Made by a program: the position numbers and the translations under genes
Source of the DNA: an archaeon GW2011_AR5
GTDB taxonomy: Archaea > Aenigmatarchaeota > Aenigmatarchaeia > GW2011-AR5
NCBI GenBank assembly: GCA_000806115.1
Contig: JWKQ01000002.1
Location: 1-52,496 of the forward strand
DNA: 52,496 bases
Direction: 5' to 3'
The notes under the pieces: generated by a model
What the model was told of the DNA's origin: nothing
Database searches by the model: none
What the model saw: the letters and a program-made list of their open reading frames with translations, nothing else
Shown here: positions 624-30,771 of the stretch, piece by piece
How the letters are laid out: every line of letters begins with the position of its first letter
How positions within the stretch are numbered: the stretch's first letter is position 1

Positions 624-1175
624 TTACCTTGTTTGTCGCTCTAAAAGCCGTTGAAAAGAGAGCAAGCGTGTTTGTTTCTCAGGATGCTTGGATTTTATCA
701 ACTTAATGAATCTCAGATGAGATTCTCTGCTTATAAAAAATCTCCAGCAACCAGTCTTCTTGTCATACTGGTGAACTTTGCCACACCTTATTCCAGATTT
801 TTCAAGAATTGCCACAATCTCGTCCAGCTTTTCCTTTTTCTTCTGGACGAACTGTACGTAGAAGAACTTTTTGATGTCATGGGGAATGCCTCCTTCTGCA
901 TCAAAAAATCCTGCAACATACGCCAATCCTTGCTTTCTATTGAGTGTCGAAACATCGATCGGTTTCAGAAGTTCAGGAAGTTTCGTTTCCAAAACATGTA
1001 TATTTCTTTGTTGAAAAATCCACGAATTGGACTCCAATACGGCAATTATCTGGCGTAAGCGTTCCAGCCATTCCCTGTTTTTCTGGGTAATGACGGCAAC
1101 TTCACCTTTTTGCTTGCCTCTATACACGTAGCCATCATGAAGCGCACCATGTAGATACGCGATGTGCTCATTCAT
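624..1175 (-). CDS. LAGLIDADG homing endonuclease encoded in the 16S intron
   Basis: The 183-residue protein has two LAGLIDADG-like helices: AYLHGALHDGY near residues 6-16 and LAYVAGFFDAEGG at residues 84-96, with acidic residues at the ends (D14, and D92 or E94). The two-motif architecture fits a monomeric endonuclease that cuts the intronless 16S allele. The C-terminal half has the basic, aromatic-rich composition usual for DNA contact. The stop codon (624-626) lies in the downstream 16S exon rather than in the intron, so a spliced or circularised intron would lose this terminator. The start ATG at 1175 lies inside the intron. The family assignment is strong; activity is untested. Confidence 0.93.
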   Translation of the reverse strand: MNEHIAYLHGALHDGYVYRGKQKGEVAVITQKNREWLERLRQIIAVLESNSWIFQQRNIHVLETKLPELLKPIDVSTLNRKQGLAYVAGFFDAEGGIPHDIKKFFYVQFVQKKKEKLDEIVAILEKSGIRCGKVHQYDKKTGCWRFFISRESHLRFIKLIKSKHPEKQTRLLSFQRLLERQTR

Positions 1176-1206
1176 GATAATACTTGTCTTAGTCGACTTT
1201 TAAAGT
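633..1206 (-). other. 16S intron 1, about 574 nt, with a homing endonuclease ORF
   Basis: The conserved CCTTGTTACGACTT (complement of the 3' minor-domain sequence near E. coli 1492-1510) is split after CCTTGT at about 632 and resumes at about 1207. Repeated T residues leave one or two bases of ambiguity at each boundary. The insertion lies at about E. coli position 1499, in the decoding-site end of helix 44, and splits the 1492R primer site. It encodes a LAGLIDADG protein on the rRNA-sense strand. Archaeal rRNA introns of this class are removed by the tRNA splicing endonuclease at a bulge-helix-bulge, which was not modelled here. Confidence 0.92.
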
Positions 1207-1278
1207 TACGACTTAACCCTCCTTGCAGACTTGTGATTCAAATCGCTCTACGCGAGCTTCACCAAAAGTCCACTCGGA

Positions 1279-1320
<42 letters not shown>

Positions 1321-1328
1321 GCGAAAGA

Positions 1329-1492
1329 TTCCACTGAAGCAAATGCATCATAGTGCTGCTATAGACAAATTAAAGTGTCATCCGCCCAGTCTATATTCAC
1401 CGGAAATTCCTGCGTCAACAAGAATTTCCTCATAGTCAAACCGTTCTGACACTCTGTTCGTCTCGCCAAAAAATCATCTTGCACTTGCTCCG
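1329..1492 (-). other. 16S insertion 2, about 160 nt, in the helix 43 loop
   Basis: The flanking 16S sequence keeps the short helix 43 stem (AGCGAA with TTTCGC), but the loop that usually holds about nine bases is expanded by about 160. The insertion ends pair with one another: 1336-1347 is complementary, with G-U pairs, to 1480-1491 over 12 positions. A closed terminal helix fits either a bulge-helix-bulge intron or a retained expansion segment. The exact boundaries cannot be set by eye. It contains no ORF of note. Confidence 0.75.
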
Positions 1493-1521
1493 TTGATGAC
1501 CTTCGCTTACTAGGGATTCCG

Positions 1522-1561
<40 letters not shown>

Positions 1562-2070
1562 CGTAGGTTTAAGAGATTGGCTTCGCCTTACGGCGTTGCA
1601 TCCCGTTGTCCTACGCATTGTAGGCCGCGTGTATCCCCGTAAATTCAGGCCATACTGACCTGCCGTAGCCCGCTCCTTCCTCTGTTTTAGCAACAGCGGT
1701 CCCGCTAGAGTGCCTACCCTCCGGGGAGGATAGTAGCAACTAGCGGCACGGGTCTCGTTCGTTTCGTGACTTAACACGACACTTCACAGCACGAACTGAC
1801 GACGGCCATGCAGCACTTCTCAGCTTGTCAGGTAACCCCTTTAGAGTGACCCTCATTCTGCTGTCTTCACGGGTAAGGTTCCTGGCGTTGAATCCAATTA
1901 AACCGCAGCCTCCACCCCTGGTAGTGCTCCCCCGCCAATTCCCTTAAGTTTCAACCTTGCGGTCGTACTCCCCAGGCGGCCCATTTAACACCTTCGCTAC
2001 GGCACCACAGAATCTCGAAGATTGTGTGACACCAAATGGGCATCGTTTACAGCGTGGACTAACGGGGTAT

Positions 2071-2140
2071 TTAGTTGAAAAATTCCATTTTTCACTAAAT
2101 TGAGAAATTCGAAAATCTCCCAATCGGAATTTCTCAATAT
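2071..2140 (-). other. 16S insertion 3, 70 nt, in the 790 loop
   Basis: The universal GGATTAGATACCCC sequence is broken after GGATTAG (or two bases later, because AT is repeated). The 70-base insert folds into two hairpins: one 11-bp perfect stem (TTGAGAAATTC with GAATTTCTCAA) and one stem formed from GAAAAAT and ATTTTTC. The site corresponds to about E. coli 791-793, in the P-site 790 loop, where a retained insertion should be lethal. It is therefore probably a small intron. It splits the 806R primer site. Confidence 0.85.
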
Positions 2141-2398
2141 CTAATCCCGGTTGCTCCCCACGCTTTCGTCCCTCACTGTCAGACCCGTTCCAGTCAGGCG
2201 CCTTCGCCACAGGTGGTCCTTCACGGATTAAAAGATTTTACTCTTACCCGTGAAATACCCCTGACCTCTCCCGGTCTCGAGTCTGATAGTATCTCCAGCC
2301 ATCCCAACAGTTTGCTGTTGGATTTCACCAAAGACTTATCAAACCAGCTACGGACGCTTTAGGCCCAATAAACGTGACTACAACTTGAGGCGCGGTTA

Positions 2399-2521
2399 TT
2401 TACGGTTCGAAGAACCCGTGTCGTACGACGCATAAATGCGTCATTGCTTATTCAAGAATCATTTGACTATTTTCATAATCAAATAAAACTGCCAGAAGAA
2501 TGTTTGTTACGATTCTTCGAA
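2399..2521 (-). other. 16S insertion 4, about 123 nt, next to the 530 loop
   Basis: The 515 region GCCGCGGTAA is followed not by the usual continuation but by about 123 extra bases, after which TAACCGCGCC resumes the gene. The insert is closed by a perfect nine-base inverted repeat, 2406-2414 with 2513-2521. It contains internal hairpins, including GACGCATAAATGCGTC at 2427-2442, which resembles a palindrome found elsewhere in the window. The position, about E. coli 533, is essential for decoding, so an intron is the best reading. Confidence 0.82.
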
Positions 2522-2646
2522 TTACCGCGGCGGCTGGCAACCGTCTTACCCACCTCTTATTCGCTTACCTTTTTACAGTAAGTAAAAGATACCGCATTGC
2601 GATATCACTCAGGATTCCCTCGTCACCCTTTCGGGCATTGCGAAGT

Positions 2647-2677
<31 letters not shown>

Positions 2678-2989
2678 CTTCATGTCTCAGAAGCCATCTC
2701 CGGGCAATCGCTCTCACGACCCGTACGGATTATAGCCTTGTTGAGCAATTACCTCAACAACAAGCTAATCCGTCGCAGTCCCATCCTATAGCACATTGCT
2801 GCTTTAAGCGAAAAAGCCTTCCAGCAATTATCGCCTATCGGGTATTACGCCCAGTTTCCCAGGATTATCCCCGTCTATAGGGCAGGTTGACTACGTGTTA
2901 CTGAGCAGTACGGTTTGTATTGCTACAAGTACCTCGCATGGCTAAGCCGAATCCTGATAGTAGTAGTCTCCGGCGGGATCAACCGGAAT

Positions 2990-3260
2990 TGTAGGGTTTG
3001 CACTACAAATATATGTGGAATGTCCCTGCAAAATTCTACTGATAGAGTTTTGCCTGTCTGCACCTTCATCTGGCAAATGCAAGCAGATGCCTTCATGATG
3101 TTCCACAGTTGGATACGTTTCGTCACAAACAGCCGCCGACTGACGCAAAATATATGACGCCTTTGGCGTCTGTCGATTTTGTGTCTCAGCATTTTTGGCT
3201 TTTTCCGAAACAACGCCACAACAGTGGGTTGACGTATGTCAATATAATTTGAGATTCCAA
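2990..3260 (-). promoter_or_regulatory. 16S leader and probable promoter
   Basis: This stretch upstream of the 16S gene holds the 5' half of the processing stem at 3059-3068 and a GACGC palindrome at 3156-3170. A TATA-like sequence reading CAAATTATATTG on the minus strand (about 3239-3252) would place transcription start near 3215-3220 and give a leader of about 230 bases. I see no credible gene here. The promoter is a consensus guess. Confidence 0.4.
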
Positions 3261-3493
3261 TACATTCGATGATGTATTTGGTTTATTCTTTAACGAGCAT
3301 CCAAAATGCAAAGGCCGGAAACCGCACAGAATGAGTTCCGCTCATTCCTGTGCGCCAACAATTTAGATCTCAAAACTGCCTGACGCTAAAGCGTCCTTCA
3401 ATTGACAACTTCAAAACGAGTCGCCAAACTCGAGACGAAATCATCATTTTCGCCCGCAACATTCCGGCGCGAACCGCCAAATCCGCACCAGAA

Positions 3494-3570
3494 TATAGTG
3501 TACAAGGAACAATTATATTTCCTTGTGCACTATAAGTGAACCGACATATATCAGAAACCGGTTCACTATA
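3494..3570. repeat. Twin inverted repeat with TATA ends, copy 1
   Basis: A first inverted repeat (3494-3508 with 3520-3534, one mismatch) ends in CACTATA. It overlaps by TATA with a second inverted repeat (3531-3543 with 3559-3570). The same design, two adjacent hairpins with TATAGT ends sharing a TATA, occurs at 27752-27840. The surrounding 3260-3650 stretch has no gene that I can support. It also holds an imperfect palindrome at 3334-3363 and a GACGC palindrome at 3382-3395. Confidence 0.6.
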
Positions 3571-3653
3571 ACAACGGTAATATTCATGGTGACATATTTA
3601 AACGTATCGGAGTGCGGTCGTTCAAATTAAAACTACCAGGAAAACATATTTCA

Positions 3654-4081
3654 ATGGACTTACGCGATCCGGACTTTTCTGAAATAGCAAGATCTTTTGA
3701 CTACGATACCAAAAAATAGATGCGTATCAAAGACTGATAGCTGCCTTCCAAAGGAATGATCCAGAGGCTGTTGTAGGCTGTTATATAGAACTGGACTGTA
3801 AACCTAGTGCAAGGCAATATCTCAGAGACATGATGTCATCTCAGAGCGTCGAAATAGCGATCGAGCGCAGTATGGATGACCTGGCGTACGAGCTTGCAGC
3901 TAAAAGAGGTGTTTCAAAAAACGTAGTTGATTGCCTTATCAATAAAAGGAACAGAGAGTTGAGGCAGCAGGAAGAAAGACGACGAAAGAAAACCGCTGAA
4001 TATGAAGAGGCATTGGAATTGTACAAGACTAATCCGGACGCTGCCAGAAAAATCCTTGGTTATGATCCTAGTGACTGCTAA
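3654..4081 (+). pseudogene. Hypothetical protein interrupted by a one-base frameshift
   Basis: ATG 3654 opens a 21-codon frame ending at TAG 3717, just after an AAAAAA run (3711-3716). Shifting back one base at that run gives an uninterrupted frame through to the stop at 4079-4081. The combined product would be about 143 residues: an acidic N-terminus, a helical middle and a Lys/Arg/Glu-rich helix (RQQEERRRKKTAEYEEALEL) near the end. The only intact unbroken ORF is 3830-4081 (83 aa), with no good ribosome-binding site. A TATA-like ATATTTAAAC lies at about 3594-3603. Causes could be a homopolymer error, a real mutation or slippage. The family is not recognised. Confidence 0.55.
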
Positions 4082-11013: not shown

Positions 11014-11871
11014 TTACTTGAACTTCGCAAGCAGAGGAGAAATGTCAACGTTGCTGATGTCGTGGTGAACAAGGGGCGTTGTTGCAATCTGCGGAGTGCC
11101 GTCTTCGTATGTCGGTTTGCTCTCCTGATAGAATATTCCTATCGGGATTTTTTCTCCCCACATGCTGCCCATCTGGATTGCGGCTATCTTATCAGTAGGC
11201 TCATAGCCCGTTTCTTCCAGCTTGAATATTCTCTGCTTGTACCAGTCCGCAGTCTGCACCTTGTTGTATGTTGTGCACGGCTGGAAAATGTCTATCAGCG
11301 CGAAACCTTTGTGCTTTATGCCCTCCATGATTATTTTCTTGAGGTGCATTATGTCCATCGCGTAGCCGCGCGCGACGAAAGTGGCGCCGGCAGCTATGGC
11401 CCACGTGATGGGGTTGACGGGATCCTCAAGGACGCCGCTGGGGGTCGAGTTCGTCTTGAACCCCTTCTCGCTTGTTGGCGAAGTCTGCCCCTTCGTAAGT
11501 CCGTACACTTCATTGTCCTGGACTACAAGCGTCATGTCGAGGTTGCGCCTCATGGAGTGCATGAAGTGGTTGCCGCCGATGCCGTATGTATCTCCGTCGC
11601 CTGAAACCTCTATAACGTTGAGCTTGTTGTTCGCAAGCTTGATGCCTGTTGCTACTGCAAGTCCCCGCCCGTGAAGTCCTTCGAATCCGTATGTGCGCAC
11701 GAAATGTGGCGTTTTGGAGCCGCATCCTATGCCGGAAACTATTACTGTATTGTGCTGTTCCAATTGCAGCTCAGCGATCGCATTCTTGATAGTGCTAAGT
11801 ATCGTGAAGTCGCCGCATCCGGGGCACCATGTTGGCGCCTCCTTTGTTGTAAGTTCCGCTATCGTCGCCAT
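11014..11871 (-). CDS. korB: 2-oxoacid:ferredoxin oxidoreductase, beta subunit
   Basis: The 285-residue subunit binds thiamine diphosphate and the proximal [4Fe-4S] cluster. WCPGCGDF (C16, C19), GIGCGSK (C50) and IFQPCTTYN supply the four Cys ligands, and SGDGDTYGIGGNHF with VQDNEVYGLTKGQ forms the TPP/Mg site. It pairs with the fused gamma-alpha subunit upstream to convert a 2-oxoacid to acyl-CoA with reduction of ferredoxin. Substrate (2-oxoglutarate, pyruvate or other) cannot be told from sequence, so the symbol is provisional. ATG 11871 follows the upstream stop by one base. Confidence 0.9.
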   Translation of the reverse strand: MATIAELTTKEAPTWCPGCGDFTILSTIKNAIAELQLEQHNTVIVSGIGCGSKTPHFVRTYGFEGLHGRGLAVATGIKLANNKLNVIEVSGDGDTYGIGGNHFMHSMRRNLDMTLVVQDNEVYGLTKGQTSPTSEKGFKTNSTPSGVLEDPVNPITWAIAAGATFVARGYAMDIMHLKKIIMEGIKHKGFALIDIFQPCTTYNKVQTADWYKQRIFKLEETGYEPTDKIAAIQMGSMWGEKIPIGIFYQESKPTYEDGTPQIATTPLVHHDISNVDISPLLAKFK

Positions 11872-11872
11872 T

Positions 11873-12010
11873 CTAACCAATCCATCCTGTCTGGTCGCAC
11901 ATAGGTCCGTCAGTCATGACGTATATTCCAATGCGCACCGGTATTTTGTAAGCGTCAATGTCTCTTGTTTCGAGTTTTTTATCGTATATTTTCAGCCTGT
12001 CCGTCATCAT
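11873..12010 (-). CDS. 45-residue protein between the Kor subunits
   Basis: A 45-codon frame starting ATGATG at 12010 overlaps the preceding tiny gene as ATGA. It stops (TAG) one base before the KorB start, so it is translationally embedded in the operon. The sequence contains a beta-rich core, YKIPVRIGIYVMTDG, and one cysteine. There is no Fe-S motif. I do not recognise it. Position suggests an accessory subunit or assembly factor of the oxidoreductase. Confidence 0.6.
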   Translation of the reverse strand: MMTDRLKIYDKKLETRDIDAYKIPVRIGIYVMTDGPMCDQTGWIG

Positions 12011-12171
12011 ATCACCTTCCATTGCCAGCGTTCCTTGCGGATTTCCTTGTCTGTCAAGTGCCTTGAGTATCTGGTCAAATCAATGAACCTGTCGTCCGCG
12101 TAGAAAGTTCCAGTCGAGTCAAGTCTCATTCCCCAGTTTCCGGCTACCCTGCTTTCATATTTCTCTTCCAT
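12007..12171 (-). CDS. 54-residue protein between the Kor subunits
   Basis: ATG 12171 abuts the stop of the alpha gene directly (TGA then ATG), and the stop overlaps the next start as ATGA. The product is charged, with an aromatic-rich start and a helical end (TDKEIRKERWQWKVI). It has no cysteine and no membrane segment. The perfect packing of four start/stop junctions between alpha and beta argues that this and the 45-residue frame are real genes. Family unknown. Confidence 0.62.
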   Translation of the reverse strand: MEEKYESRVAGNWGMRLDSTGTFYADDRFIDLTRYSRHLTDKEIRKERWQWKVI

Positions 12172-13965
12172 TCATCTCGCCTCGATTATGCCGTGCTTGC
12201 TGAATACAAGCTCCTTCAGTTCCGTTGTATTCAGGAGTTCCTTTATCCCCGCATGGATGTCCTGCGGCGTGAACGGCCGTCCGTCGTATTTGAGTATCCT
12301 GTGGTCAATGTCGAGTCCCGTCTGTTCCTTTATCACGCCCGCAAGCTGTGCGGTTTTGTTGTTCTCGATTATCACCGTGGCTTTCGCATTGTTGATCACT
12401 TCAGCTATGCGCTTTGCAGGCAGCGGGCTGATGTAAACAACCTGGAGGTAATTAACGCTGATTCCGTCCTCTTTCAGGAGCTTCATCGCCTCCCTTATCG
12501 GTCCCTTCGTTGAGCCCCAGGAAATTATTGTTATGTCGGCGTCCGGGTTTCCGTCAAGAACGGGGTCGTCAAGAGTCTTCGCGAACGTTTCCATTTTCCT
12601 GAACCGCTTGTTGTGCATCATGACGCGCACTTCTTCTTCCTCGCGTTCATACCCTTCCTCGTCGTGTTCGTAGCTGGTGGCAACGTGCATGCCGCCCTTC
12701 TGTCCGGGCACTGCGCGCGGGGAAATTCCGTCCTCCGTTATCGTGTACCTCTTGTAGTCAGCCGGCACTTCACTGAGGAGCTTGCCCCTGTCGATGACTA
12801 TGTTTTTTGTGTCGAATTCTTTTACCGTCCAGAAACTTTCCCCGAGGAATTTGTCCGTCAGCACTATAACAGGCAGCTGGTATTTTTCAGCTATGTTGAA
12901 AGCGTCCACCGTGCGATAAAAGCATTCTTCCACCGAGCCGGGTGCTATTATCACCCTTGGAGATTCGTCTGTTGAAGCATGAAGCAGAAAGCGAAGGTCG
13001 CCCTGCCCCGAGTGCGTTGCCATTCCAGTTCCGGGCCCCGGTCTCTGCGCCTCTATCACCACAAGAGGCACTTCCGTCTGCGCCGCCAGCCCGAATCCTT
13101 CAACCATCAAAGCGAAACCGCCTCCGGACGTGCCGCACGCGCTGCGTACGCCTGCATAGCTTGCGCCTATCGCCATGTTGATTGCGGCTATCTCGTCCTC
13201 GGTGTGCTTGACCACAAGGTTGAACTGTCTCTCCAGTCCCGCCATGTTCGAGAGCAGTGAGGACGCCGGAGTCATCGGGTAAGCTGCGTAGAATTTGCAG
13301 CCTGCCTTGACCATTCCAACGGTTATCGCCTCGTTGCCCGACATGAACATGTTGTTCTGGCGGGGTTTTTTTTCTAGCCTGAATTTGAAGTCGTCGGGAA
13401 AATTATTCTTGATGTAGTCGTATCCCGCCCTTGCCGCCTTTACGTTGGCGTCGACAATTGCAGTTCCTTTCTTCGTGCCGAAGTTGTCCGATATTACCTT
13501 GTTGAATATTTCCATGTCAAAGTCGATTAGCGCCATAGTAGCGCCCAGGGCGACGGTGTTTCTCATTATCTTTCCGCCGTTCTCGTTTGCAATCTTGTAC
13601 AGCGGCACGGAATAAAGCTTTACCGTGGAATTTTCTATCTCAGAAGGGTTAAGCTTGGTGTAATCGCCGTCGTAGATTATGCCTGCATGGTCGCTGAGCT
13701 TGTGCTTGTGCTTGTCAATCGTGTCCTTGTTCATGGCTATGAGAAGGTTGACTTCCCTCACGTGCGAGAATATCTCCGCGTCCTCGACGCGCACGTCCAG
13801 GCTGTTGTGCCCGCCGCGGATGAGCGAGGGGTATTCCGCCGTTGCAAACACCTCAAGGCCGCCGCGCAGGCATGTCTTGGCGAACATCTGTAGCCCTGCG
13901 TTCAGTATGCCGTCTCCAGCCTCTCCGCCGATTTTCCACGAGAGTTTGTTGATTATCTTGGACAT
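12172..13965 (-). CDS. korA: 2-oxoacid:ferredoxin oxidoreductase, fused gamma-alpha subunit
   Basis: The 597-residue protein joins a gamma domain (about 1-190; KIGGEAGDGILNAG and AEYPSLIRGGHN) to an alpha domain (from about 205; FMSGNEAITVGMVKAG and YPMTPASSLLSNM). KHTEDEIAAINMAIGASYAG and GTSGGGFALM belong to the alpha core, followed by the transketolase C-like region. This KorA-type gamma-alpha fusion is common in archaea. It is the first gene of a four-gene operon. A TATA-like GAATTTAAAC and a GGTGT site precede the ATG. Confidence 0.92.
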   Translation of the reverse strand: MSKIINKLSWKIGGEAGDGILNAGLQMFAKTCLRGGLEVFATAEYPSLIRGGHNSLDVRVEDAEIFSHVREVNLLIAMNKDTIDKHKHKLSDHAGIIYDGDYTKLNPSEIENSTVKLYSVPLYKIANENGGKIMRNTVALGATMALIDFDMEIFNKVISDNFGTKKGTAIVDANVKAARAGYDYIKNNFPDDFKFRLEKKPRQNNMFMSGNEAITVGMVKAGCKFYAAYPMTPASSLLSNMAGLERQFNLVVKHTEDEIAAINMAIGASYAGVRSACGTSGGGFALMVEGFGLAAQTEVPLVVIEAQRPGPGTGMATHSGQGDLRFLLHASTDESPRVIIAPGSVEECFYRTVDAFNIAEKYQLPVIVLTDKFLGESFWTVKEFDTKNIVIDRGKLLSEVPADYKRYTITEDGISPRAVPGQKGGMHVATSYEHDEEGYEREEEEVRVMMHNKRFRKMETFAKTLDDPVLDGNPDADITIISWGSTKGPIREAMKLLKEDGISVNYLQVVYISPLPAKRIAEVINNAKATVIIENNKTAQLAGVIKEQTGLDIDHRILKYDGRPFTPQDIHAGIKELLNTTELKELVFSKHGIIEAR

Positions 13966-17375: not shown

Positions 17376-19367
17376 CTAGTGGCAGCCGCATCCGCCGCTT
17401 TGCTCAGACGATGAACCACCGCAGCATCCGCCGCCGGAGAAGCTTCCTGCCGGGTTTTCCATTGTCGGCTTTTGCTTGACAGGAAGGGTACCTAGCACGG
17501 CCGCGCCAAGCGCCCCGAGAGGCACGAAGTCGTTGCTGTGCTGGGCAGCTGCCGATAGTGCTGGAAGCACCGCAGGTGCTTCCTCTTCGCCCCAGTCAGT
17601 CCACATTTTCTGCTTCTCCTTGTATTTCCTGAACTGGTCGAAGTTGGATTTAATCGCAAACATCTGTTCTTTTGTGAGGCGCCTGTGGTGCTTGTCGTCG
17701 ACTAGCTTCTTCCCCGTTCTCCTCTCCCACTCGTCTGAAGGTATTGAGAACTTTCTCTGCACCTTGTCTCTATAGAGAGCGGGTATCACGTTGAACGTGC
17801 AGAACGGAAGCACCCTCCCGTCCGGCGTCGCGTAATGGATGTCGCACTTGTGTATCCTGTCGATGTCCCAGTTGTACGGGTCCTGGAAGTGCATCATTCC
17901 TACGAACAATGAATTCTTGTGGAAATCAGCCAGTCCGTGGTAGTTTGTGCCGCTTACCGCGCCTGTCAGCATTCTCACGAACTTGAGGTCTTTTGGTTTC
18001 TTCTCTTCGTTGACGTATTTGCCGATGTTCCTCATCAGCTTCATCACGACCCACGGCTTGCGTATGCTCTTGTGTTTGCTGCTGTTGAGCTCGCGCGTGA
18101 GTTCGCCGAGATAATCGAAGAATCCCTCTATGTCGAAGAATTCGGGCAGCGCAACCATCCGGTCGCCGTCCTTGAATACGTATGTCGCCATTCCGCATGC
18201 GAAGTGGATTGAAAGGCGGTATTTGGGCTCTTCCTTCATCGCCTCGACGAAGTCCGTTACCTGCTTTGCGCACGGCACCGGGAACCAATGCTCCCTGCCT
18301 ACCTGCCCGTCTGTCTGTTCCTCTATCTTCTTGATTGCACCGGGTATGGTTATTCTTTGTTTCCTTCTCAGCTTGTCCGGCATTCTTCCCACCAGGCTTA
18401 CAGGCTGGAAGTTCACGGAACGGATAGTGTCAATGTTTCCAAAGCCGAAGCGTATTATGTCCCCCAGCTCATGGTCGTTTATGCCGCCGATTACTGTCGG
18501 CACAAGCACGATGCCAAGCCCCGCTTTCCTGCAGTTCTCGATGGCGCCCTGCGCTTCCCAGTAGTTCTTCGGGTTTGTTTCAGGCGTCATCCCGTCGAAG
18601 CTCATGTAGAGCACGTGGCTGCCGGCATTTTTTATGTTCTGGCATAGCTCAAGGCTCTGCGACAGGTTGATGCCGTTGGTGTTCAGCTGGATGTGATCGT
18701 AGCCGATTTCCTTTCCGGCTTTTATTATGTCGACAAGGTCTTCCCTGAGTGTAGGCTCGCCGCCCGTGAGCTGCACGGCATTCGCGCCTACCGGTTTTTC
18801 GTCCCTCATTCGCTTTAGCATGAATTTTATCTGGTCAAGGGTCGGTTCGTAGATTGGCTCTCCTTCCTTTGCATAGAAGAAGCAGTACCAGCACGTTAGG
18901 TCGCACCGATTGGTGAGCACGACGTTGCCCAAGCCTGTATGCGATTCGTGCTCCACGCACAATCCGCAGTCAGTCGGGCAGTTGATCTCGAACTCGCTCT
19001 TGTCTATGTTCGGGTTGAGTATCTTTATGCCCGGGTCCTGGAATTTCTCGGCTTTCTTGTACATGTCGTAGTCGGACCAGTACACTTCGGTGACGGCGCC
19101 GTGCATCGAGCACTGCTTTGTCATCCATACCTTGTTGTCTTTTACATATACTACGCAGTCGATCTTCATCGTGTCCCATTTTTCCTCGTCGACGCATCCC
19201 GGGCAGAGCGACTGGTTGAACTTCAGCACCTTCACGTCGCCCTGTGGGAGCAGCGCAATCAGCGCCTTTTTGCGCTCGTCAGTATAATCCTTGACATAAG
19301 GGGAAGTAGAAATTAAGCTTATTTCATCCTTGTCTCTTGCAATTGCCTGGGGATATGCCGTTACCAT
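17376..19367 (-). CDS. tes: Radical SAM protein of the tetraether lipid synthase (Tes) type
   Basis: The 663-residue protein has a cysteine-rich N-terminal region (LCPGCVDEEKW, CSMHG, CPTDCGLC), then the radical SAM cluster motif NRCDLTCWYCFFYA, GGEPTLR and a downstream TIM-barrel region, then further Cys residues. This arrangement matches the archaeal MJ0619-like family shown to couple archaeol chains into GDGT. The C-terminus carries an odd Gly/Cys-rich tail (GGGCCGG, GGCGCH). ATG 19367 is preceded by GAGGTGTTGAA. A TATA-like TTTATAAAAG lies about 70 bases upstream. Radical SAM identity is certain; the Tes assignment rests on motif recall. Confidence 0.75.
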   Translation of the reverse strand: MVTAYPQAIARDKDEISLISTSPYVKDYTDERKKALIALLPQGDVKVLKFNQSLCPGCVDEEKWDTMKIDCVVYVKDNKVWMTKQCSMHGAVTEVYWSDYDMYKKAEKFQDPGIKILNPNIDKSEFEINCPTDCGLCVEHESHTGLGNVVLTNRCDLTCWYCFFYAKEGEPIYEPTLDQIKFMLKRMRDEKPVGANAVQLTGGEPTLREDLVDIIKAGKEIGYDHIQLNTNGINLSQSLELCQNIKNAGSHVLYMSFDGMTPETNPKNYWEAQGAIENCRKAGLGIVLVPTVIGGINDHELGDIIRFGFGNIDTIRSVNFQPVSLVGRMPDKLRRKQRITIPGAIKKIEEQTDGQVGREHWFPVPCAKQVTDFVEAMKEEPKYRLSIHFACGMATYVFKDGDRMVALPEFFDIEGFFDYLGELTRELNSSKHKSIRKPWVVMKLMRNIGKYVNEEKKPKDLKFVRMLTGAVSGTNYHGLADFHKNSLFVGMMHFQDPYNWDIDRIHKCDIHYATPDGRVLPFCTFNVIPALYRDKVQRKFSIPSDEWERRTGKKLVDDKHHRRLTKEQMFAIKSNFDQFRKYKEKQKMWTDWGEEEAPAVLPALSAAAQHSNDFVPLGALGAAVLGTLPVKQKPTMENPAGSFSGGGCCGGSSSEQSGGCGCH

Positions 19368-19394
19368 TTCAACACCTCGTTTTCGGATGCCAAT

Positions 19395-19443
19395 CATCCT
19401 TGTTAGACCACGTCTTAGGTAATTTACAACTTTTATAAAACAC
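19395..19443 (-). promoter_or_regulatory. Promoter and leader of the Tes-like gene
   Basis: The plus strand reads CTTTTATAAAAC at about 19432-19443, a TATA box for minus-strand transcription. Beyond it, 19398-19416 matches 45975-45993, upstream of the 121-residue gene, at 16 of 19 positions. In both cases the shared element lies 14-20 bases downstream of a TATA box, at or after the expected transcription start. Confidence 0.5.
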
Positions 19444-23870: not shown

Positions 23871-24488
23871 ATGAAAATCCCGGACGCGGAAGCGTACAGG
23901 CTGCTGGAGAAATACGGCATACAGACGGTGAAATGGGTCATGGCGCGCAACCTGCAGGAAGCCGAGATTGCCGCGGAAAACCTTCATTTCCCGGTTGTGC
24001 TGAAGGTTGATTCTCCTGACATTATCCACAAGATGAAGGCAGGATGCATACGCACGGTGTTCCATCGCGACCATCTGAAAAAGATGTTCGAGGCTGTCAT
24101 GTCATCGGCAAAACGTCAAACCAAAAATATCAACGGCATATTGCTGCAGGAACTTGTCTACAGCAACGTGGAAGGGGTGCAGGAGCTGATAATAGGCGTC
24201 AAGCATGACAGCCAGTTCGGCAAGGTCATAATGTTCGGGGCGGGCGGGCGGCTGACTGACGAGAAAGACGTTTGCTTCCGGCTTGTGCCGCTCACCAAGC
24301 CCGATGCCGTTGACATGACGTCGGAGCCTAAAATTGCCAGGCTGATAACCAGGAAGGATAAGCTTGCGTCCGTGCTCCTGAAGGTGTCCAGGCTGGCGGA
24401 ATTCGAGAAAATAAGCGAACTTGACATCAATCCGCTGATGGTATCTGACAAGGGGCTGCTGGCGGCGGACGTAAGGATAATAGTTTGA
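23871..24488 (+). CDS. acdB: ADP-forming acetyl-CoA synthetase, beta (ATP-grasp) subunit
   Basis: The 205-residue protein matches the ATP-grasp_5 domain: FPVVLKVDSPDIIHKMKAG, QELVYSNVEGVQELIIGVKHDSQFGKVIMFGAGGRLTDEKDVCFRLVPL and ELDINPLMV. With the alpha subunit at 29362 it makes ATP from acyl-CoA, ADP and phosphate, the energy-conserving step of archaeal peptide and sugar fermentation. It starts a plus-strand run with Por genes; acdA closes the run after an insert of unrelated genes. Confidence 0.92.
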   Translation: MKIPDAEAYRLLEKYGIQTVKWVMARNLQEAEIAAENLHFPVVLKVDSPDIIHKMKAGCIRTVFHRDHLKKMFEAVMSSAKRQTKNINGILLQELVYSNVEGVQELIIGVKHDSQFGKVIMFGAGGRLTDEKDVCFRLVPLTKPDAVDMTSEPKIARLITRKDKLASVLLKVSRLAEFEKISELDINPLMVSDKGLLAADVRIIV

Positions 24489-24585
24489 GTAATTAACCTA
24501 CAGCAGCCGGCGTTGGTTGGTTTTGCAGAAAAATCGGGGTAATTTTCGTATACCTTTAAATTACTGCATGAGAAATTGATTAACG

Positions 24586-25107
24586 GTGTATTCTACGCAG
24601 ACATTTGGATTCTATGGAAGGAGCGGTCAGGGCGTTGAAACCGCTGTCCGCCTGTTCTCTAAAGCCTGCTTCCAGTCCGGTTTTTACGTGCAAAGTTTCG
24701 CTTTTATCGGCAGGGGGCGCCGTGTTTTCCCTGTCCGGGGATTTGTGAAGATAGACAAGGCGCCGATTTTATCAAGGCAGGTTGAGGAGCCGGATTTTTA
24801 CCTGATATTCGACCCCACGCTGGGTATTGACGCCAAAACAATGAAGGAGAAGTCCGTAGCCGTTTTCAACTCTCCTGAAAAAATGGCTTCGCCTGTCCTG
24901 AAGAAGCGGAAGATTCATGCTTACAGCGTCGACGCCACGGAACTTGCGCTGACGCACCTGAAGGCGAACATCCCAAACACCATCATGCTCGGCGCGCTGG
25001 CAAAACTGTTCAACAAGGTTTCAATGAAAAGCCTGAAGGCTGCCATGGAAGGCATGCCGCGCGAGAATTTCAACGCTTTTGACGAGGGCTACAAGGGAGT
25101 GAAATAG
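24586..25107 (+). CDS. porG: 2-oxoacid (pyruvate-type) ferredoxin oxidoreductase, gamma subunit
   Basis: The 173-residue protein has the gamma features GFYGRSGQGVETAVRLFSKA and AFIGRGRRVFPVRGFVKID, with EEPDFYLIFDPTLG and the conserved end. The gene starts GTG at 24586, with no better ATG nearby. The subunit helps bind CoA. It heads the porG-porD-porA order typical of the four-subunit enzyme. Confidence 0.88.
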   Translation: MYSTQTFGFYGRSGQGVETAVRLFSKACFQSGFYVQSFAFIGRGRRVFPVRGFVKIDKAPILSRQVEEPDFYLIFDPTLGIDAKTMKEKSVAVFNSPEKMASPVLKKRKIHAYSVDATELALTHLKANIPNTIMLGALAKLFNKVSMKSLKAAMEGMPRENFNAFDEGYKGVK

Positions 25108-25151
25108 ACTCTCCTAATAGGAGCGGAGCGACATAAGGATGATAAGCCGTT

Positions 25152-25170
25152 AAGAAGGAATATCCTTCTT
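25152..25170 (+). promoter_or_regulatory. Hairpin upstream of porD
   Basis: AAGAAGGA-ATA-TCCTTCTT forms an eight-bp hairpin ending 10 bases before the PorD start and just before its GGGGTGA binding site. A smaller CTCCTA/TAGGAG hairpin lies nearby at about 25110-25125. They may act in translational control or internal transcript processing. Confidence 0.45.
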
Positions 25171-25180
25171 CCGGGGTGAA

Positions 25181-25465
25181 ATGATGATAGAAGAACATGA
25201 AGCGAAGTTCGTGATACCGATAATACAGCCGCGGCAGCAGGAGCAGCCCTCGCGCTTGAGGGTGTTCAAGCCCAAGATTGACCTGAAGAAATGCGAGAAG
25301 AACTACAACTGCGTCGTGTCCTGTCCGCATGCTGCCATATCTGTGAAGCCTGACGGCTTTCCGGTGATTGACTATGATTTGTGCACCGGCTGCCTCATCT
25401 GCCTGCGCGAATGCCCGACTTTCGCAATAACCGAGGAGCATGAGCATCGCGTGCCAAAGGTGTGA
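25181..25465 (+). CDS. porD: Ferredoxin-type delta subunit of the Por complex
   Basis: The 94-residue protein has two Fe-S motifs. The second is intact (C68-X2-C71-X2-C74-X3-C78). The first lacks its second Cys: C38, N41, C44, C48. A usual PorD binds two [4Fe-4S] clusters and passes electrons from the TPP site to ferredoxin. The missing ligand would leave at best a [3Fe-4S] or a lost first cluster. Confidence 0.87.
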   Translation: MMIEEHEAKFVIPIIQPRQQEQPSRLRVFKPKIDLKKCEKNYNCVVSCPHAAISVKPDGFPVIDYDLCTGCLICLRECPTFAITEEHEHRVPKV

Positions 25466-25470
25466 TAATT

Positions 25471-26526
25471 ATGAAGGGAGATATACTATCGTCAGTAGAC
25501 TCGGCGGCATACGGCGCGAAGTCGGCCGGCGTGCAAGCCGTGCCGCACTTTCCCGCTCCGCTGTCCGTGGAGATGGCCAGGAAAATTTCGCAGGTGCACT
25601 CCTGCCGGATATTCAACCTTGAAACTGCCGGCTCGGCATTTGCAGCCGCTCTGGGCTCTGCTGCTGCCGGGCTCAGAACTTTCGTGCCGTGCTCCACGCC
25701 GGTGTCATACGAAGCTCTTGCGGCGCCGTTCATGCGGCTGCCTTTCGTAGCTTGCAATGTCAGCCGCAGCCTGCACGGGCCGAAGCCCGACCATTCAATC
25801 ATGTTCCTGCGCGACGCGGGCTACATGATGTTCTTCCCGGAAACCAACCAGGAAATCCACGACTCTGTGGTGCTCGCGTACAGGATAGGCGAGGACAGCA
25901 AGGTGATGCTTCCTTCGGTTATAAACATAGACGGCCTGCCGAGCTTTATGGAGCCTGTGCAGCCGGGAACGGAACAGGCAGTCAAGACATTCTTGCCCAA
26001 GTTTAACGCTCCGAAGCTTGACGTGAAGAAGCCTGTCAGTTTCGACATCTATTCCGACAATTACCAGGAAGGAAGGCTCCAGCTTAACAAGGCAATGGAA
26101 AATGCGGCTGACCTGATAAACAAGGTTGGCGAGAAATGGAAGCAGAAGTTCCACCGCTTCCACGGGCTTGTCGACCGCTACATGACAGAGGACGCGGAAA
26201 CCGTCATAGTAATAATGGGCTATCATTCTGCAACAGCGAAAGCCGCTGCAAAGCGCATGCGCGAGCAGGGAAAGAAAGTCGGAGTGCTAAGGGTGCGCGT
26301 GTTCCGTCCCTGGCCGAAAGCCGCCGTGGAAAGCGTCCTGCAGAACGCGAAGCGCGTATTGGTATTTGACCAGTCGGTGTCGGTAGGCATCGGTGGGATT
26401 CTAAAGACGCACGTAGGGCGCGGCAGCTCGCTCATCTGCCTGGGCAAGTATCCTGGCGAGAAGGATTTTATTGACGCTGTTGCGCGTGTTGAGAAGTCCG
26501 AAAAAGACTTGAGATTGTGGCTGTAA
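25471..26526 (+). CDS. porA: 2-oxoacid ferredoxin oxidoreductase, alpha subunit
   Basis: The 351-residue protein has the PorA fold: NLETAGSAFAAALGSAAAG, RLPFVACNVSRSLHGPKPDHS, FLRDAGYMMFFPETNQEIHDSVVLAYRI, then a C-terminal domain with IVIMGYHSATAKAAAKRMREQ and RVFRPWP. The family consensus is recognisable but several usual residues (for example in the EsEhaa block) are altered. ATG 25471 is five bases after the PorD stop. porB is not next; it is 2 kb away beyond an insert. Confidence 0.87.
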   Translation: MKGDILSSVDSAAYGAKSAGVQAVPHFPAPLSVEMARKISQVHSCRIFNLETAGSAFAAALGSAAAGLRTFVPCSTPVSYEALAAPFMRLPFVACNVSRSLHGPKPDHSIMFLRDAGYMMFFPETNQEIHDSVVLAYRIGEDSKVMLPSVINIDGLPSFMEPVQPGTEQAVKTFLPKFNAPKLDVKKPVSFDIYSDNYQEGRLQLNKAMENAADLINKVGEKWKQKFHRFHGLVDRYMTEDAETVIVIMGYHSATAKAAAKRMREQGKKVGVLRVRVFRPWPKAAVESVLQNAKRVLVFDQSVSVGIGGILKTHVGRGSSLICLGKYPGEKDFIDAVARVEKSEKDLRLWL

Positions 26527-26559
26527 TCGGCTTAAAAAGACTGGATTTATCTGATTTTT

Positions 26560-27255
26560 ATGGCAGTGCAAAGTTTGAGACTTCCGCCTCAAGAGTTACC
26601 AATAGGCGTAGATGCTCATATTTTTGTATCGGGAAACGACCACCCAGAAGCATACGAAGGCTCACCAATGGTGTTCAGGGCTCTGTATGGCGGTGTTCCG
26701 ATGAGGCGAAAAGTCTATCATATGGAAAACGGTAAGCCTGTCGCTGGTTTTGAAGGCTTCAAAGATGGTGTAACAGTTTCTCCGGCAGAACTGTACACTC
26801 TACAAGACGCACCATCAGGAAGACGCTATGTACCATTTGCAGATGGCAAAAGACTAATCCACGGACAATATCCTCACGGCGCAGAAGTCACAAAACCCAG
26901 CAATGTCCTTTTCTACTCTTGTAGTTTTCCGTTCCGTATATCGCCGCATTATGATTTTGAGATTGAAGGTTTCAGGAATATGTCTGATGGAGAAGTTATG
27001 GCATTTTTACAAGACATGCGCTCCAAGCGTATATCTACAGAAAACTTGAAAGGCAGAATTCCAGCGGACATGGCTGAGACAGAATTGAGGAGAATCAATT
27101 CGGAAATCGAGAGCGGTATAAGGGCACTGGTAAAACGCTGCAAAGACGATGTAAGAATTGTTGAACTTCTTCAAAGCCTGGATGAAGGAGCTCATTATCT
27201 TCCAGTTGCTGAACTTCCTGAAAACACTCTGCTAGCTCCGCTAGCCAGACACTAA
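26560..27255 (+). CDS. Hypothetical protein, 231 aa
   Basis: A soluble protein without signal, membrane or known motif. The first two thirds look like mixed alpha/beta with many aromatic residues; residues 150-215 are helical and charged. By eye it is more AT-rich than porA just before it. It ends four bases into the convergent next gene. It is the first gene of the insert that separates porA from porB. Family unknown. Confidence 0.65.
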   Translation: MAVQSLRLPPQELPIGVDAHIFVSGNDHPEAYEGSPMVFRALYGGVPMRRKVYHMENGKPVAGFEGFKDGVTVSPAELYTLQDAPSGRRYVPFADGKRLIHGQYPHGAEVTKPSNVLFYSCSFPFRISPHYDFEIEGFRNMSDGEVMAFLQDMRSKRISTENLKGRIPADMAETELRRINSEIESGIRALVKRCKDDVRIVELLQSLDEGAHYLPVAELPENTLLAPLARH

Positions 27256-27728
27256 TTCTGAAGCTCGTCATAGAGCGCCTTGTAGCCCTTTAGTGCAAGT
27301 GTTATTTCGCTTCTCTTTAATTCTATCGAAAGCTTTCCTTCGTCATAAAGCTGCCTGGCTGTTGAAATCATGTCGCCGGAAGAATAGAGCGCCTGAAAAT
27401 CGCTCGCGCTGACTGTTATCCTTATGTCCGGGCTGCCGCTGCCCGGAGACGTCGTTGGTATATGCCCGTTGACAGAAGTCGTGTAGATTGCGCCGCCGAC
27501 GGCAATCTCTATCTGCGCGCCGTCGCCCAGCTTGTATGCGCCTATTTCATTGGCAACCCAGTTGACATTCTCGCCGCCGATGCTCTGCGCAAGGGGCGGC
27601 CTAACGCCCTCGCCTGCTGACGTCGTAAGAACCGGCTTCCTCGTCTGGCTTGACGCAAGAGGCGACGCAAAAAACATGACTACTGCCAGAATAACTATTG
27701 CCGCTATTACGGCTATTTTCTTTTTCAT
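27252..27728 (-). CDS. Exported hypothetical protein, 158 aa
   Basis: ATG 27728 starts a signal peptide or anchor (MKKKIAVIAAIVILAVVMFFASPLASSQ). The mature part has GGENVNWVANEIGAYKLGDGAQIEIAVGGAIYTTSVNGHI, a Ser/Pro/Gly stretch, and a helical end. An in-frame longer reading from 27809 is less likely because it crosses the palindromes. Family unknown. Confidence 0.65.
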   Translation of the reverse strand: MKKKIAVIAAIVILAVVMFFASPLASSQTRKPVLTTSAGEGVRPPLAQSIGGENVNWVANEIGAYKLGDGAQIEIAVGGAIYTTSVNGHIPTTSPGSGSPDIRITVSASDFQALYSSGDMISTARQLYDEGKLSIELKRSEITLALKGYKALYDELQN

Positions 27729-27751
27729 AGAATTCACTTGACGGCTGAACT

Positions 27752-27840
27752 TATAGTTAACCAAGTAAAGAATCCAGATATTATAACTTGGTTTACTATA
27801 TGTGACCAACTTGTGTAATATCTTGAATATTAAGTTGGTC
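27752..27840. repeat. Twin inverted repeat with TATA ends, copy 2
   Basis: TATAGTTAACCAAGT (27752-27766) is inverted at 27786-27800 with one mismatch. GACCAACTT (27804-27812) is inverted at 27832-27840. The two share TATA at the junction and have TATAG ends, as in the element at 3494-3570. It lies upstream of the exported protein and downstream of the HTH gene, so it could be an operator for that regulator or a terminator pair. Confidence 0.6.
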
Positions 27841-27853
27841 AGCTATAAAAATG

Positions 27854-28282
27854 CTATCCGAACAGCGAGTCGCGAAGCTTCTCCCTGGCTTCCTTTATTT
27901 TTGAAAATAATTCTTCTATGCGGCTGTCAAGCATTTTCTCCTGTCCCTCGACATAATACCACGTGGAGTATTTCGCGTATTTCCGCGGGAGTGTTTTTCT
28001 TTTTATGTTCATCCCGCGCCGGCTGCTCATCAGAAAAAGCTCGTTGTGCTTCTGGAATTTCTTCTCGATTTCTACGGCAGGCATGGGGCCTTTTTGCTTC
28101 AGCCAGCTTTCAAACTCGTTGAGGTTGCCGGATTCCGGTTTTCGGAGCCCCTTCACCCAGTGGTATGCTGCGGAATAGGACACGCCAAGCTGGCCGGCAA
28201 TTTCGTTCACCGATTTGCCTTCGCCATGGAGCTTCACCGCCTCCTCGTATTTCTTGCTGTAAAGCTGCCTGCCGCGTCGCAT
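27854..28282 (-). CDS. HTH transcriptional regulator
   Basis: The 142-residue protein starts MRRGRQLYSKKY and has an N-terminal homeodomain-like helix-turn-helix (KYEEAVKLHGEGKSVNEIAGQLGVSYSAAYHWVKGLRKP). A charged middle and a coiled C-terminal helix follow. It lies in the insert between porA and porB and faces away from porB. The twin palindrome downstream is a candidate target. Exact family uncertain. Confidence 0.7.
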   Translation of the reverse strand: MRRGRQLYSKKYEEAVKLHGEGKSVNEIAGQLGVSYSAAYHWVKGLRKPESGNLNEFESWLKQKGPMPAVEIEKKFQKHNELFLMSSRRGMNIKRKTLPRKYAKYSTWYYVEGQEKMLDSRIEELFSKIKEAREKLRDSLFG

Positions 28283-28481
28283 TACCATGCTGATAATTCT
28301 GTATCGTCGTATCAATAAAGCTGTCGCAAGAATCAGAAATATGATGGCTCAAAAGCTACCCGTATGGTCATATCTTGCGATCCCACTGGGACGATCTTAT
28401 CATCGCCATCGTAACTGATTATGCAAGCAAATATAAAGCCGCTATTTTTGCTGGTTTTTCGCCGGCGCTTTCAAACTGCAA

Positions 28482-28496
28482 GACGCCGAAGGCGTC
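28482..28496. repeat. Dispersed palindrome GACGCCGAAGGCGTC
   Basis: The 15-base palindrome, with six more matching flanking bases, is identical to 29485-29499 inside acdA. Related GACGC...GCGTC palindromes occur at 2427, 3156, 3382, 10941, 10982, 23175 and (imperfect) 34871. Here it sits in the 5' region of porB, in a 230-base gap with no gene. Confidence 0.7.
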
Positions 28497-28546
28497 ATTC
28501 GGGGGCAAAAGGGCCGCTTTTATAGTTTAATGAACAAAATGGAAAA

Positions 28547-29323
28547 ATGCCTATTGACGTCAACGTGCAAGAGCTGAAGAGCGTGAAGAACTTCGGTGAC
28601 GGCCCTCCGGGCTCGGGACAGATGCTCGCGCTCAAGCTGGTTCTGCAGACCATTGACAATATAATACTTGTGAACTCCACAGGCACCGCGACGCCGTTCA
28701 TCAGGCATGCCCCTTTCATTCACGCAGGATTGAACGCGGTTTCCGTTGCAAGGGGCGTTGCCCAGGGCGTTGAAAAAGGTACAGACAAGAAACCCGGGAC
28801 AAAGGTTGTCGTTTTTGCGGGCGACGGCGCAACTGCTATCAGCCTCGCCTCGCTCACGAACGTAAAGGAAGATGTCATTTACGTATGCGCGAATGATTTC
28901 GGCTACAATGCAATGGACTACAAGAACGAGCGTGGTCTCGTGCGTCACGTCGCAAGCTCTGCCGCATATTGCGCGACTGCCTGCGTCTCGTACCCCGAGG
29001 ATTTCATATCCAAGCTGAAGAAAGCCGGTGCTATGAGCGGTTTCAGGTTTATAGAGGTTCTCTGCCCCTCGCCGGAGTCATGGGGTTACGAACCTTCCAA
29101 CACAATGGAAGTCGGGCGCATAGCCGTGGAAACAGGCATATGGCCGCTTTTCGAGGTGGAAGCCGGAACCGTAAATCTTACAAAGCGCCCGAACAGGCTC
29201 GAGCCCGTGGAAAATTTCAATCATGTCCAAAAAAAATTCCAGATTCCGGCTGACAAGACGCATGTTGTTCAGGAAACCGTCAACAGGCAGTGGAAAAGCC
29301 TCGGCGACGGGAAGCTTATCTAG
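28547..29323 (+). CDS. porB: PorB-like TPP subunit lacking the proximal Fe-S cluster ligands
   Basis: The 258-residue protein follows PorB throughout: GDGATAISLASL in the TPP region, ASIAYPEDFI-like SYPEDFISKLKKAG, RFIEVLCPSPESWGYEP and VETGIWPLFEVEAG. But the CxxC that should follow the start is GPPGSG (P20, S23), the TGC is TGT (T47), and the fourth Cys is displaced. All four ligands of the proximal cluster appear lost, and the TPP-site DNEAY is NDFGY. The family is clear; ordinary oxidoreductase activity is doubtful. ATG 28547 follows a TATA-like TTTTATAGTTT by about 20 bases. Confidence 0.85.
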   Translation: MPIDVNVQELKSVKNFGDGPPGSGQMLALKLVLQTIDNIILVNSTGTATPFIRHAPFIHAGLNAVSVARGVAQGVEKGTDKKPGTKVVVFAGDGATAISLASLTNVKEDVIYVCANDFGYNAMDYKNERGLVRHVASSAAYCATACVSYPEDFISKLKKAGAMSGFRFIEVLCPSPESWGYEPSNTMEVGRIAVETGIWPLFEVEAGTVNLTKRPNRLEPVENFNHVQKKFQIPADKTHVVQETVNRQWKSLGDGKLI

Positions 29324-29361
29324 AGCAATTGACATTTATACAGCACGAGTCAATTACTTCT

Positions 29362-30771
29362 ATGCCTTCTGATATTGATTATTTCTTCAATCCGAGCAGC
29401 ATTGCAGTAATCGGCGCATCCAGGAACCCGAAAAAGTTCGGGCATATAATTTTTCGGAACCTAAACAATGACGCAGTAAAGACAGACGCCGAAGGCGTCA
29501 TTCGCTCTGCGTCGTCCGTTTTTGGCAAGAAAGTCTTTCCTGTCAATCCCAAAGCTGAGGAAATTCTCGGGAAAAAGTGCTACAAACATATCTCAGACAT
29601 CGGCGAGCCTGTTGACCTTGCCGTAATCGTCGTGCCTGCCGAGTCTGTGGTGCAGTCAGTTGCCGAATGCAGGGAAAAAGGCGTGAAGGCTGCCGTTATA
29701 ATCACTTCGGGCTTCGCGGAAGCGGGAAATGCAGCCGGGGAAGAAGCTGTCAAAAAAGCGGCGGGCAGCATGCGCGTCGTAGGGCCGAATGTTATCGGCA
29801 TATATGACGCTTACTCTGGCGTGGACACCGTCTTTAATCTCCGGCACCGTCAGCAGCGCCCGCGCCCGGGGAACATCGCATTCATATCGCAATCAGGCGC
29901 ATTCGGTTCTGCCGCCCTTGACCTTGCATCTTTTGATGGTATTGGAATCTCCAAGTTTGTTTCTCTCGGAAACATGGCTGACGTCAATGAAACTGACATG
30001 CTTAGCTATCTTTTGTCGGACGAAAAAACCGGCGTAATCTGCATGTATGTGGAAGGTTCCAAGGACTATCGGGCGCTGTACGGTAAACTGAAATCTTCAC
30101 GGAAGCCGGTGATTGTGGTGAAAGCGGGAAAAACTAGCCAGACCAGGAAAGCTGTCGCCTCGCACACGGCATCGATGGCCGGCGAGTCCAGAATCTTCTC
30201 CGGCATGCTACGGCAGAGCGGCGCGCTGGAAACTGACGCAGAAAGCCTTTTTGACATGGCTAAAATATTCAGCCAGCCGGTGATGAGGAACAGCCGTGTG
30301 CATGTGGTAACTGACGGCGGTGGATTCGGCATCCTTGCCGCAGACGCCCTGGTTCAGAATGGCATGCGGCTGTCAAAGCTGTCAGATAAGGCAGTTGCGA
30401 AGATACGCGGCTGCGTGCCGTCCTATGCCACCGTTTCCAATCCCCTGGACTTGACGGGCGACGCGGATAATGCACGGTACAAGTCCGTGCTCCCGCTCGT
30501 GCTCGGCGATAAAAATGTGGATGCGCTGCTCGTAATACTGCTTATGCAAATCTCTTCGCTCGACTCGGACATTGTCGAAGTGCTTGCAAGCCAGCGCCGT
30601 TTCGGGAAACCGGTCATTGTCTGCATGGCCGGGGGAGAATACACAAATCTCCACAGAAAGATGCTCGAAGAGAAAGGTATACCAACTTATTCCTATCCCG
30701 AACGCGCCGTCAGCGCATTAGCCGGCATGTACAGATACCAAAAAATGAAGCGCCTGCGAAGCCAGGAATAA
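29362..30771 (+). CDS. acdA: ADP-forming acetyl-CoA synthetase, alpha subunit
   Basis: The 469-residue protein has a CoA-binding domain (IDYFFNPSSIAVIGAS), VGPNVIGIYD, FISQSGAFGSAALDLAS, and the phosphohistidine segment ASHTASMAGESRIFSGMLRQSG. It forms the acyl-CoA synthetase with AcdB. A palindromic repeat lies in frame at codons 42-46 (DAEGV), within an extra segment (about residues 36-51) of the CoA-binding domain. ATG 29362 gives the natural N-terminus of the family. Confidence 0.93.
   Translation: MPSDIDYFFNPSSIAVIGASRNPKKFGHIIFRNLNNDAVKTDAEGVIRSASSVFGKKVFPVNPKAEEILGKKCYKHISDIGEPVDLAVIVVPAESVVQSVAECREKGVKAAVIITSGFAEAGNAAGEEAVKKAAGSMRVVGPNVIGIYDAYSGVDTVFNLRHRQQRPRPGNIAFISQSGAFGSAALDLASFDGIGISKFVSLGNMADVNETDMLSYLLSDEKTGVICMYVEGSKDYRALYGKLKSSRKPVIVVKAGKTSQTRKAVASHTASMAGESRIFSGMLRQSGALETDAESLFDMAKIFSQPVMRNSRVHVVTDGGGFGILAADALVQNGMRLSKLSDKAVAKIRGCVPSYATVSNPLDLTGDADNARYKSVLPLVLGDKNVDALLVILLMQISSLDSDIVEVLASQRRFGKPVIVCMAGGEYTNLHRKMLEEKGIPTYSYPERAVSALAGMYRYQKMKRLRSQE

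Follow-up and report, generated by a model that had tools for sequence, protein, structure and literature searches.

In the present study, we examined a 52,496-nucleotide window (contig JWKQ01000002.1, positions 1 to 52,496, forward strand) of the archaeon GW2011_AR5 (AR5), in which homologs of all four POR subunits, alpha, beta, gamma and delta, are encoded together but have lost catalytic and electron-transfer residues. Judging from the sequences, these genes on balance encode a POR-derived pseudoenzyme, conserved in one archaeal order, which would be assembled and act by binding as a scaffold or regulator. The locus (23871-30771) has the order ACD beta, PorG, PorD, PorA, two ORFs, an HTH gene, PorB and ACD alpha, where ACD is ADP-forming acetyl-CoA synthetase. 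On the plus strand lie ACD beta (ATP-grasp; 23871-24488), PorG, the gamma subunit (24586-25107), PorD, the ferredoxin-like delta subunit (25181-25465), pseudo-PorA (354 aa; 25462-26526), pseudo-PorB, a single open frame of 258 aa (28547-29323), and ACD alpha (29290-30771); the HTH gene (27854-28315) is on the minus strand. PorG (TIGR02175, with the POR Pfam family) and PorD (TIGR02179) score above their family cut-offs, whereas PorA (NF040682, E = 3.8e-63) and PorB (NF008819 PorB, E = 4.7e-43, with TPP_enzyme_C) fall far below theirs.

Several other elements of the window deserve mention. The two ORFs of the PorA-HTH interval, at 26560-27255 (plus strand; no Pfam hit) and 27252-27809 (minus strand), have no match in the loci of relatives and look like recent insertions that push PorB further from PorA in the AR5 species. 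The window also holds an archaeal 16S rRNA gene, whose match (1179-2989, minus strand) spans 1811 bases, compared with the 1478 positions of the model; the gene thus probably carries one or more inserts. Directly downstream of it, an ORF of 183 aa (624-1175, minus strand) resembles a LAGLIDADG homing endonuclease. A large protein at 17376-19397 (minus strand), radical-SAM-like by eye, ends in a Cys-rich C-terminal tail, GGCCGGSSSEQSGGCGCH.

The original prediction held that PorB lacks all four proximal-cluster Cys, and alignment bears this out, the four positions now being Pro, Ser, Thr and Ser. The CxxC of ligands 1 and 2 has become P20-P-G-S23 within GPPGSG (28604-28615), the third Cys is Thr47 (28685-28687; T45-G-T47 for TGC), and the fourth, in the APCPxxW motif, is Ser175 (29069-29071; all plus strand). 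This last Cys is not displaced, as had been claimed, since Ser175 aligns at the ligand position (LCPSPESWG vs. LCPCPTAWG in the congener G002); Cys173, upstream of it, is a non-ligand Cys that intact relatives possess too. The DNEAY motif reads N116-DFGY120, again as predicted, and continues into a short join at the site of the NTGxQxSxATP loop (28892-28936, plus strand). This loop follows DNExY over 26-33 residues in intact PorB and measures 7 residues in AR5 and 0-9 in the degenerate clade. By our own mapping, the Mg-ligand Asn118 and the CoA-critical Lys125 of the Sulfolobus OFOR beta subunit (PMC5020499) would fall in the region of the deleted loop. Of the Mg-TPP motif, AR5 PorB keeps GDG (28820-28828, plus strand) but has Asp for the Asn, and GDG is lost in G005, G012, G017 and relatives of family f3. 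All four Cys are gone in AR5, G001, G003, G005, G012 and G017. At the genus level, this complete loss covers g1 (except G002), g3 and g10, so it probably happened more than once. A frame or assembly error was considered as the source of these changes and rejected, because every one of the 22 PorB proteins in the clade has this loop deleted; ligand losses likewise recur across genera.

Loss of the PorB loop and of two PorA residues is the larger change, which had been missed previously. In PorA, Pro33 (25558-25560) replaces the Thr of YPITP, a ligand of the 2-oxoacid carboxylate (PMC5020499), and Ala56 (25627-25629) replaces the TPP-activating Glu (LETAGSA vs. VESEFSA in 9bt4_B, the alpha chain of a solved PFOR). 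Arg102 (25765-25767; all plus strand), aligned with the 2-oxoacid-binding Arg, is kept in AR5 and lost in several relatives. Across the clade, Thr is lost in 24/24 PorA proteins and Glu in 22 of the 24 (the other two are ambiguous by alignment), its position being taken by A, V, Q, D, T, S, F, L or I; the alignment at both sites is uncertain in the most divergent proteins (G021, G026, G030 and G005). PorD lacks one ligand, as had been predicted, namely the second Cys of cluster I (C38-x2-N41-x2-C44), and thus has seven of eight Cys, with cluster II complete and cluster I incomplete. Cluster II ligands are kept in 24/24 clade members while cluster I erodes. In G009, G014 and G018 (loci L062, L063 and L065), the whole of cluster I is gone, three ligands from the first motif and one from the second, with all four ligands of cluster II retained, so that one cluster is cleanly lost. 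In the Sulfolobus model, cluster I of the ferredoxin is turned toward the proximal cluster, and a structural role is assumed for cluster II (PMC5020499); these roles may carry over to PorD. With the proximal cluster gone and PorD impaired, electron transfer from TPP to ferredoxin would not be possible in the usual way, which supports the earlier suggestion that the complex may not reduce ferredoxin.

All four por genes are under purifying selection. Nei-Gojobori dN/dS is 0.07-0.23 in most informative pairs for PorA, PorB, PorG and PorD, comparable to the values of the HTH and ACD genes, with dS near saturation in several pairs and two outliers (PorG, 0.40 in G011/G016, where changes are few; PorD, 0.31 in the f2 pair). 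The complex evolves faster than KorA but does not drift freely: AR5 and G003 share 78-81% identity in the pseudo-POR vs. 89% in KorA, and AR5 and G006 share 40-44% vs. 64%.

The degenerate complex is present in 10/10 genera of the AR5 family. PorA and PorD homologs occur in 19/19 family genomes and PorB in 18, the exception being G008, where the contig ends after PorA. Families f3 and f4 have shorter, more decayed versions, and the complex was absent from f5, f6 and G024; the relatives' genomes are 56-94% complete and that of AR5 87.6%. In both trees, the degenerate sequences make up one side of a branch (support 100/99 for PorB and 100/100 for PorA), and the f2 genomes (G019, G029) branch between this clade and intact relatives. 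In f2, PorA has Pro for the Glu and has lost the Thr, PorB keeps its four Cys and a 26-residue loop but lacks the NTG Asn, and PorD has eight Cys. Because f2 PorA lacks Glu and Thr only and more distant relatives are intact, decay appears stepwise; the order of loss would be TPP activation (Glu, Thr), then the PorB loop, then the cluster ligands of PorB and PorD. No degenerate PorA was found among nine further loci inspected in the same class outside the order (E<=1e-42): Thr, Glu and Arg are all present in eight, and the ninth (L118) shows Glu and Arg, its N-terminal Thr-motif region being unread.

AR5 also encodes a Kor whose intactness was correctly predicted (11014-13965). Alignment of KorB, the beta subunit of a two-subunit OFOR (11014-11880, minus strand), with Sulfolobus OFOR shows CPGC, GIGC, GDG, DN-x-YGLTK and QPC, and that of KorA, the alpha/gamma subunit (12172-13965, minus strand), with 6n2n shows YPMTP, EDE and QRPGPGTG. 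A second POR was not found in the AR5 genome, leaving KorAB only besides the pseudo-POR. KorA is present in 16 of the 19 family genomes, and those without it (G004, G011 and G016) are exactly the ones with a second, motif-intact POR. The same pattern recurs in f2-f4: G019, G029, G020 and G026 combine a second, motif-intact POR with a lack of KorA, G025 and G030 carry KorA but no intact POR, and a search of G021 turned up neither. Almost all genomes with the degenerate complex thus encode exactly one intact OFOR, either KorAB or an ordinary POR. Scored on KorA alone, with KorB checked in the AR5 window only, this complementarity is suggestive only, since few independent events underlie it. The PorA of one otherwise intact POR (L037; contig C8 of G026, 2834-3791) is split into two overlapping frames by a frameshift or sequencing error.

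Since catalytic residues are lost, selection is clear and a working sister enzyme lies alongside, non-catalytic repurposing is probable. Homology is retained and motif-intact relatives lie outside the clade, as expected of a pseudoenzyme; conservation of the fold is judged by sequence homology, AF2 having reached a pLDDT of 32 from a three-row alignment. All members keep PorG, the PorA and PorB cores and the four Cys ligands of PorD cluster II. We propose that TPP chemistry and the electron wire were given up and assembly was kept: the subunits would still form an alpha-beta-gamma-delta complex, held by the conserved cores and by one, mainly structural, PorD [4Fe-4S] cluster. Such a complex would act through binding, for instance of the working OFOR, of a ferredoxin, or of CoA or a nucleotide held in the old cleft; it would scaffold or regulate 2-oxoacid metabolism without turning over 2-oxoacids. 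However, selection means usefulness and is not proof of a scaffold or regulatory role, and f5, f6 and G024 live without the complex. Many members, moreover, keep GDG and Asn and might still bind TPP or another diphosphate, and glyoxylate carboligase provides a precedent for TPP chemistry without the Glu (cited in PMC5020499).

Scaffold or regulator is our best guess, and the role may instead be a new non-TPP activity. In a broader form, the complex, having lost TPP and iron-sulfur chemistry stepwise, would have become a new non-TPP enzyme or a sensor controlling 2-oxoacid/CoA metabolism throughout the family, which we regard as possible but tentative. The main rival is narrower and somewhat more doubtful: the old cleft would serve non-TPP chemistry on CoA, thiols or nucleotides, maybe with electrons from the PorD cluster. 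Strong selection on four subunits, the conserved, Arg-rich domain II of PorA and the PorD signature CLICLREC-P-AI-E, almost invariant in the clade and f2 with R76 and E85 at 100%, would all suit such an enzyme, but no newly conserved polar residue set was found in the PorA/PorB cleft of the clade, where nearly all conserved positions are conserved in intact relatives too, and f3 PorB has been heavily cut to 201-222 aa. That the locus is a slowly decaying relic, retained by chance, is unlikely. Its faster evolution relative to KorA, the repeated loss of ligands in separate lineages and its complete disappearance from f5 and f6 are what a relic would show, yet dN/dS is about 0.1 for all four genes, the frames are open throughout, and every genus of the family retains the complex.

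Less probable still is that the complex remains a TPP enzyme and has changed its chemistry, for example to that of the non-oxidative 2-oxoacid decarboxylase which the original prediction had offered. Cys mutants of Sulfolobus OFOR retain non-oxidative decarboxylation (PMC5020499), so Cys loss by itself would permit it, and AR5 has GDG in PorB and the carboxylate-binding Arg in PorA. But Glu, Thr and the NTGxQ loop are gone, clade mates have lost GDG, and the set of Glu, GDG-N and TPP-binding site is not intact across members. In Sulfolobus OFOR, mutation of YPITP or of the Arg abolishes or strongly reduces activity (PMC5020499). We reject this reading because a TPP enzyme would hardly let such positions drift to many different residues. 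We give very little credence to the idea that the complex is an adaptor or sub-complex of ACD, coupling acetyl-CoA to ATP formation. The por genes do have ACD beta and alpha on either side in g1, g9, f3, f4 and some intact relatives; since intact POR shows this adjacency too, it may reflect an ancestral arrangement. G001 (8 contigs) and G006 (2 contigs) both keep the pseudo-POR, yet no ACD alpha was found in either, and ACD was rejected as an obligate partner on this ground. A contig of G003 (C57, 2-1180) is 100% identical to AR5 ACD alpha over 393 aa, and G003 has its own copy, 72-81% identical, so this bin is likely contaminated by the AR5 species. The HTH protein was likewise rejected as a dedicated partner and is better seen as a syntenic neighbor. 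Wherever the PorA-PorB interval could be read in the family, its gene lies within it, and the gene is single copy in 30/31 genomes of the order, including f5 and f6, which lack the pseudo-POR. In G023 (f6) the order is PRC-HTH-pilin-MPE with no por genes between, indicating that the HTH gene and the PRC-barrel gene next to the locus, although both conserved, are background synteny.

A pseudoenzyme is usually a single subunit. In this case an entire oxidoreductase of four subunits is affected: residues for catalysis and electron transfer were lost in an order that can be read, and the complex nevertheless stays under selection in small genomes. A literature search returned no account of such a degenerate complex, many subscription papers being outside its scope. 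Homology-based annotation could well label the pseudo-POR a pyruvate synthase, which would assign the wrong enzyme to these archaea; real 2-oxoacid oxidation in them must rest on KorAB or a second POR. Archaeal PorABCD (solved as 9bt4; NF008819 and NF040682) has the same four subunits, each homologous and encoded together, and differs from the AR5 complex in possessing the Glu, the YPITP Thr, the NTGxQ loop, the proximal Cys, the full set of PorD ligands and PorA and PorB that meet the family cut-offs. StOFOR1/2 of Sulfolobus tokodaii belongs to the same superfamily and is the reference for residue roles, but its catalytic residues are all present, as is its sole cluster, and it is AR5 KorAB, not PorAB, that resembles it. 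The oxalate oxidoreductase of Moorella, one of the closest relatives with a solved structure, likewise deviates from YPITP (YPIRP), yet it is active and retains the Glu, TPP and three clusters. By tree, the nearest fully motif-intact relatives are the "inter" POR paralogs from other families of the same class, which sometimes lie beside ACD and have a partly similar gene neighborhood; in contrast to the AR5 complex, they have Thr, Glu, Arg, the four PorB Cys, the loop and eight PorD Cys wherever these can be read.
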